From Natronobiforma cellulositropha (GTDB lineage Archaea > Halobacteriota > Halobacteria > Halobacteriales > Natrialbaceae), in assembly GCF_025629245.1 (NCBI RefSeq), contig NZ_JANZXN010000030.1, forward strand, positions 1 through 64,000: 64,000 nucleotides of DNA. The letters run 5' to 3'. Position numbers and translations under genes: made by a program. How positions within the stretch are numbered: the stretch's first letter is position 1; the number at the start of each line of letters is the position of its first letter. Shown in pieces: positions 13,698 through 51,336 of this stretch. The notes under the pieces were generated by a model. The model saw only the letters and a program-made list of their open reading frames with translations. It had not been told where the DNA came from and searched no databases.

Positions 13698-14030
13698 GGT
13701 GGTGTTCAGTGTAGCACGACCTGCCGATCCGTTGGCCGCGAACGCCAAGAAAGCCTCCGACGCTCTCGAGGACTGCGCTTGGCGAGACGCAGGCGTCTCG
13801 CTGGCCTTCGCTCGTTTCACTCGCGAAGAACTCGCTGTCGTTCGAGAGAGCGTTGCTCTCTCGTGACTGAGCGAATCGGGGATTCGCGAGGTCCGCGAAA
13901 CCGACGGTTTCGCTCGATGACGAACGACGCACCACGTCTTTCGAACGACCTCGCACCTCGAGAGCGTCGCCCCTTTCAGTCCCACCCAGCGTCGGCTGGT
14001 CGGCTGGTTTTCGCCTACCTAAACACGGCC
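13698..14030. mobile_element. Structured MITE-like element, copy A
   Basis: This 333-bp non-coding block has related inverted ends: GGTGGTGTTCAG at 13698-13709 and, reverse-complemented, GGCCGTGTTTAG from 14030-14019. Inside, GACGCTCTCGAGG (13759-13771) pairs perfectly with CCTCGAGAGCGTC (13956-13968). That 13-bp stem encloses five hairpins, at 13782-13801, 13806-13828, 13843-13863 (9-bp stem, GTT loop), 13871-13887 and 13895-13913. A tail follows with CCCCTTT, TCCCACCC and TTTTCGCCTACCTAAACAC that closely matches copy B at 51 kb. No matching flanking duplication was found, so this copy may be older. No protein frame looks real here. Confidence 0.7.
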
Positions 14031-50902: not shown

Positions 50903-50969
50903 AGATAGCTGGTTTTTCCTATGTCATTCTCTGCACCTATGTGGTAAAAAAGGTACCGGTAGTACCACA

Positions 50970-51229
50970 GGTCGTGTTTAGTTTGGTAATGGGCCTGATT
51001 CGCCAGTGGAGAAAAACCATAAAGCCCCGCTGCCATCGAGGGCTGCGACTCGCTACGATCCTCGGACTTCGTCCTGCGGTTCTTGCGTCGTGGTTGGAGA
51101 GACCGTAGGTCTCTCCTCATCACGAAACGGCGCACCGTTTCGAACGATCTCGCTCCTCGATGGCGGCGCCCCTTTTAATCCCACCCGGTTGCGGTTGTCT
51201 GGTCAGTTTTCGCCTAACTAAACACCACC
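50970..51229. mobile_element. Structured MITE-like element, copy B, with 8-bp target duplication
   Basis: This 260-bp element has 16-bp ends: GGTCGTGTTTAGTTTG at 50970-50985 and, read from the other end, GGTGGTGTTTAGTTAG (51229-51214), 14 of 16 identical. It is flanked by perfect direct repeats GTACCACA at 50962-50969 and 51230-51237. Inside, GCCATCGAG (51032-51040) pairs with CTCGATGGC (51156-51164) around hairpins at 51064-51074, 51096-51116 (9-bp stem, GTA loop) and 51123-51142. The right 60 bases match copy A. It carries no protein gene. It appears to have been moved by a transposase in trans. Beyond 51237 the sequence to 51399 holds only the CRISPR-like repeat and the asd promoter region. 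Confidence 0.78.
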
Positions 51230-51299
51230 GTACCACAAATGTGAGTCTATGACCGACAACGCACCTATTATTCTTGGGCATGATCGAAGACAACTCCGG

Positions 51300-51336
51300 G
51301 TTGCAACGCACCGAAAACCCAGAACGGGATTGAAAC
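51300..51336 (+). repeat. Solitary CRISPR-type repeat unit
   Basis: A 37-base sequence begins GTTGCAACGCACC and ends ACGGGATTGAAAC. These are the 5' and 3' signatures of a well-known CRISPR repeat class (GTTGCAAC...GGGATTGAAAC, 37 nt), and ACCC/CGGG can pair in the middle. Only one convincing copy exists here, so it is not an array. A weak match of the same length at 51370-51406 would leave a 33-base gap but includes the asd start codon. Confidence 0.55.

Follow-up and report, generated by a model that had tools for sequence, protein, structure and literature searches.

A covarying haloarchaeal hairpin core found inside two IS6-type MITEs and dispersed across most genomes of the order, with a putative RNA form

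Two repeat copies, A and B, lie in the window (the whole stretch of 64,000 nucleotides that was analysed) and are, on the evidence of their ends, non-autonomous IS6-type transposons (MITEs). Inside them sits a hairpin core of a previously uncatalogued haloarchaeal family that is present in most genomes of the order. The pairing of this core is preserved while its letters change, which strongly indicates a structured nucleic acid. On balance, it is probable that the interiors of the two MITEs are, or in the case of A derive from, a haloarchaea-wide structured element whose active form would be an RNA.

The two MITEs and their ends

The initial annotation had marked out positions 13698-14030, and these limits coincide to the base with the outer ends of the terminal inverted repeats (TIRs) of copy A. 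The ends of both copies are as follows.

13698..14030, no strand assigned: copy A, whole MITE, from a TIR search of its own genome
13698..13715, plus strand: left TIR of copy A, GGTGGTGTTCAGTGTAGC, from the sequence and the TIR search
14013..14030, minus strand: right TIR of copy A, GGCCGTGTTTAGGTAGGC as read on the minus strand, from the sequence and the TIR search
50970..51229, no strand assigned: copy B, whole MITE, from the TIR search
50962..50969, no strand assigned: left target duplication of copy B, GTACCACA
51230..51237, no strand assigned: right target duplication of copy B, GTACCACA

The 18-bp ends, GGTSGTGTTTAGTTWRGC, were found at 25 places in the own genome (0 in the control), and most of them form inward-facing pairs that lie 107-333 bp apart. 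Copy B is flanked by a perfect 8-bp target duplication, and besides B at least four sister copies in the same genome have perfect duplications, matching at 8/8 positions (gaacagag, ccgagcca, cggtgatg, cgaacgtt). A clean target duplication was not found at the flanks of copy A, and its absence there probably fits old age. The same ends also flank 698-bp haloarchaeal elements holding IS6-type (DDE_Tnp_IS240) transposases, one of which is bordered by a perfect 8-bp duplication. IS6 elements generate 8-bp repeats and include archaeal members of 700-750 bp, and the recorded IS6 MITEs include two, one of 227 bp and one of 336 bp (PMC7986276). The assignment of A and B to the IS6-type MITEs follows from the TIRs that they have in common with IS6-type transposons, together with the 8-bp duplications and this literature.

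A scan of the interiors of A and B revealed no gene filling either of them and no transposase inside, and the single IS6-type open reading frame in the own genome, a candidate helper, is cut short. An IS6 transposase acting in trans could spread those copies that have TIRs. The two copies resemble the IS6-family MITEs of the archaeal clade in their GGTSGTGTTTAGTTWRGC ends, their 8-bp duplications and their lack of an internal gene, but differ from them in that their interior is a conserved structured element, found mostly elsewhere without MITE ends. Three 107-bp mini MITEs without the hairpin were seen in genome G000 (C60:45377-45483, C26:66638-66744 and C22:1065-1171; loci L300, L302 and L307), of which the C60 copy is flanked by a perfect 8-bp duplication, the C26 copy by one of 7/8. 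From the duplicated flanks of these hairpin-less versions, the hairpin seems to be dispensable for IS6-type movement.

The hairpin core and its family

The stems, hairpins and tail that had been described in A and B from the letters are all present in the window, at these positions.

13759..13771, plus strand: copy A, closing stem P1 (13 bp), one arm, GACGCTCTCGAGG
13956..13968, plus strand: copy A, closing stem P1, other arm, CCTCGAGAGCGTC
13970..13987, minus strand: copy A, tail CCCCTTTCAGTCCCACCC, which on the minus strand is the 5' box GGGTGGGACTGAAAGGGG, conserved in the 126-copy alignment
13749..13753, minus strand: copy A, 3' arm of stem P0, GAAAG on the plus strand and CUUUC in the predicted RNA
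13973-13977: copy A, 5' arm of stem P0
13843..13863, no strand assigned: copy A, inner 9-bp hairpin with a 3-nt loop
13895..13913, no strand assigned: copy A, inner 8-bp hairpin with a 3-nt loop
51014..51188, minus strand: copy B, structured element, match to covariance model R1 (45.4 bits, E 1.2e-6 in the window)
51029..51041, plus strand: copy B, closing stem P1, one arm, GCTGCCATCGAGG
51155..51167, plus strand: copy B, closing stem P1, other arm, CCTCGATGGCGGC
51032-51040 and 51156-51164: copy B, 9-bp part of P1, GCCATCGAG and CTCGATGGC
51096..51116, no strand assigned: copy B, inner 9-bp hairpin with a 3-nt loop
51169-51186: copy B, tail CCCCTTTTAATCCCACCC

The shared tail is more frequent than chance predicts: it occurs twice in the window, where 0.04 occurrences are expected, and 13 times in the own genome, where the reversed control has none. 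The 9-bp closing stem of copy B lengthens to 13 bp with one mismatch, and copy B is a full family member at 45.4 bits. Copy A matches the family model at its ends alone (23.6 bits at 13954-13989); its interior is rearranged by extra hairpins and it derives from the family element. Just past copy B, at positions 51300-51336 on the plus strand, there is a single match to RF01369 (CRISPR-DR56), a family of CRISPR repeats.

In RNA orientation, which is the minus strand of the window, the family core is about 115-130 nt long. It begins with GGGYGGGACU, followed by P0 (GAAAG/CUUUC), a symmetric GGG/GGG loop and the hypervariable P1 of about 12 bp; after P1 come P2 with a C.C mismatch, the conserved asymmetric loop GANGYAAG/CGCARCGA, P3 and a variable hairpin. 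A search of haloarchaeal genomes with a covariance model had been proposed at the outset, and the model built from 28 copies detected 13 copies in the own genome and gave matches in 233 of the 295 genomes of the order, a survey in which up to 12 candidates were scored per genome and the copy numbers are lower bounds. When 295 genomes were sampled across the phylum, 44 had matches, all within the order.

The copies are dispersed, mostly intergenic, often many per genome (about 80 motif matches in genome G031) and mostly outside MITEs, the MITE inverted repeat lying upstream of the core in 15 of 140 copies versus about 1.6% by chance. P1 stems differ even among the copies of one genome. No shared neighbouring gene was found around the copies except at orthologous loci, and almost no annotation lies beneath the matches, on plasmids where this was checked. 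Searching Rfam 15 produced no significant match, and relaxed thresholds led to matches at chance level; literature searches that included the motif letters and haloarchaeal repeats, structured RNAs, MITEs and REPs returned no description of the core. Viral contigs yielded a single motif match, and another, on a contig labelled Lachnospiraceae (L135), is chance or contamination.

Covariation, strand polarity and change in place

Covariation is unprovable from two copies alone, so the proof that pairing is conserved over sequence, as the initial annotation had proposed from A and B, has to come from larger alignments. When P1 was examined free of any model, 92% of its pairs were Watson-Crick, compared to 42% after the arms had been re-dealt between copies. 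The 28-copy alignment showed 97.7% of cells paired, with 174 double-change cells against 59 when shuffled and 16-30 when slid. The 126-copy alignment (A4), which was fitted to the model structure and leans towards it (the P1 test is free of this), had 96.9% of its paired cells forming pairs and double changes in 24 of its 29 pairs, with 790 double-change cells versus 197 in shuffles, all of these covariation counts being raw cells with kinship among the copies ignored. The proposal is borne out by the larger alignments. P0 covaries as well (GC to CG in 12, AU to GC in 13), and copies that were found via the inner loop motif alone, without the tail, have kept P0 and its compensations, e.g., CAAAG/CUUUG and CGAAG/CUUCG.

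The mismatches that are tolerated in the stems have a direction. Read in the plus-strand orientation of the window, the model-free P1 set contained 63 A.C against 15 G.T, which is an excess of G.U on the minus strand, and the 126-copy set, read on the minus strand, contained 111 G.U against 20 A.C (74:8 by elements, and 62:20 once the one U.G-favouring pair is taken out). With that pair taken out, the polarity peaks in single copies (44:11) and is weaker in head-to-head dimers (18:9). The logic is that a bias of G.U over A.C means that selection sees one strand, for which double-stranded DNA gives no reason. The selected single strand would most simply be an RNA; single-stranded DNA would give equal polarity. 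The suggestion of a functional structured RNA or DNA is borne out as to the structure, to which the alignments add a single-strand polarity; the RNA form is one that we infer, and the function is putative.

Compensation in place could be followed at the nucS-endA intergenic locus in 29 genomes of one Natrinema-type genus (17 aligned copies), the genus and gene names being taken from named loci (Natrinema limicola, N. mahii, N. salsiterrestre) and translated neighbours, not from curated annotation. Among the 17 copies, the P1 stems differ between species and are still paired, 86% Watson-Crick versus a shuffled maximum of 74%. At this locus, five genomes are missing the hairpin and nothing else, its loss being bounded by GGGGC direct repeats, and further genomes lack the whole unit. 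Deletion is the simpler reading here because of these direct repeats and the rarity of the hairpin-less unit elsewhere (1 of 99 genomes); that the hairpin is a recent insertion into a standing target was considered and, given the same rarity, rejected as the main story.

RNA, mobile DNA and other readings of the core

If the active form is an RNA, it would be made by read-through from a neighbouring transcript or from an unseen promoter. Recognition would then fall to the conserved loops and G-tracts, either bound by a protein or folded into a K+-stabilised quadruplex, with the stems as no more than their scaffold. Since the loops and G-tracts are constant and the stems are free to vary, it is simplest to suppose that the stems serve to position the loops for such a partner. 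All four G-tracts are intact in 102 of the 126 copies and in 18 of 28 copies found by the inner motif, a hint of a K+-favoured quadruplex. The haloarchaeal cytoplasm contains molar K+, which would favour such a structure. In Haloferax volcanii, the existence of quadruplexes has been demonstrated (PMC12873603). The more specific proposal of an RNA class with a G-quadruplex core (GGG-Y-GGG, GGG, GGG) set in a duplex, with P0 and P1 stacked, stabilised by K+, multi-copy in each genome and dispersed in part by IS6-type MITEs, is tentative and on present sequences rather unlikely. A kink-turn reading of the inner loop, judged by eye, was unsupported.

No AT-rich promoter-like peak was seen at -25 to -30 of the elements, the sole AT rise, near -40, fitting the TIR, and neither an own promoter nor a U-run terminator was seen at the element ends. 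Orientation to the neighbouring genes, which were called near the loci by a composition rule, is nearly random (68:56 upstream, 73:51 downstream). This orientation, together with the lack of a visible promoter, makes a riboswitch or a fixed UTR role unlikely. The head-to-head dimers, about a quarter of the copies, are unusual for an RNA gene and count against the RNA reading. In several of them (L030, L058, L077, L180, L199 and others), the two cores lie about 20-25 bp apart around a palindromic linker with GACCGGTC.

The dimers are the best argument for single-stranded DNA, i.e., for a mobile hairpin of the REP/BIME kind, in which a transposase recognises one strand as single-stranded DNA and only foldable copies move. 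Their palindromic linkers recall BIMEs and fit a mobile history, the copies are dispersed, intergenic and almost randomly oriented, and the strand polarity fits this explanation equally. The core shares with bacterial REP/BIME elements the multi-copy intergenic hairpins and the head-to-head dimers. However, the REP stems of any one genome are as a rule alike, whereas the core stem is hypervariable within a genome and nevertheless paired, around conserved loops and G-tracts. Neither does it have a Y1 partner in the genomes examined: a search for the Y1 transposase (PF01797, RAYT) in the element-rich genomes G021, G031 and G056 found no match. Pairing also persists at a fixed locus across species, and we regard the mobile hairpin as unlikely.

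Functionless palindromes kept perfect by template-switch repair, with covariation as a mutational by-product, would explain the short perfect hairpins, some of them inside A and B (7 in the window versus a shuffled mean of 3.2 and maximum of 5), and the precise loss of the hairpin between GGGGC direct repeats. The same repair would erase the C.C of P2, the GANGYAAG/CGCARCGA loop and the GGG/GGG loop, all of which persist, and it predicts no bias of G.U over A.C, so that it appears improbable. That bias is equally unexpected if the element works between genes as double-stranded DNA, either as an intrinsic bidirectional terminator or as a cruciform. Such a role would suit the intergenic site and the strong hairpin (z of -2.8 in A and of -4.1 in B) but not the absence of a convergent-gene bias (22 of 124 only), and is very improbable. 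A guide-RNA relic of an IS200/605 element had been raised in the initial annotation; here the hairpin would be the omega-RNA scaffold of a TnpB system or the terminal palindrome of a PATE. Haloquadratum is known to carry palindromic PATEs, including short forms made up of the termini only, and these elements lack inverted repeats and target duplications (PMC3119063). Like these PATEs and IS605-type elements, A and B are short, gene-less, palindromic and haloarchaeal, and have deletion-derived short forms; unlike them, they have inverted repeats and, at B and its sisters, 8-bp duplications. No TnpB adjoining or co-varying with the element was found (G031 has about 80 motif copies and 3 TnpB matches), there is no link to TnpA, and the core has no Rfam match. 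With IS6-type ends and no Y1 transposase in the three element-rich genomes, the relic was given up as extremely improbable.

Returning to the RNA reading, the core resembles Rfam structured RNA families in having covarying helices around conserved loops and strand polarity, and departs from them in its lack of an Rfam 15 match, its very many copies per genome and the absence of a fixed gene partner. If the single-strand reading is true, most haloarchaea would carry an unnoticed multi-copy structured RNA without an Rfam entry, and the family would offer a direct test of the role of intergenic RNA in organisms with molar intracellular K+. The link between a conserved fold and transposon ends makes spread and function separable by experiment, and the covariance model is immediately usable by annotators and RNA-seq groups.

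Other repeats accompany the core in places. A second repeat, CCTCCCCAACCGACTCG...TCGTCCCTCGCG, often adjoins it in several genera (L045, L046, L047, L054), and some cores of genome G009 have degenerate AACAGCCAGAAAGCCCC units in tandem upstream of them, spaced at tens of bases (L055, L056, L061, L062).
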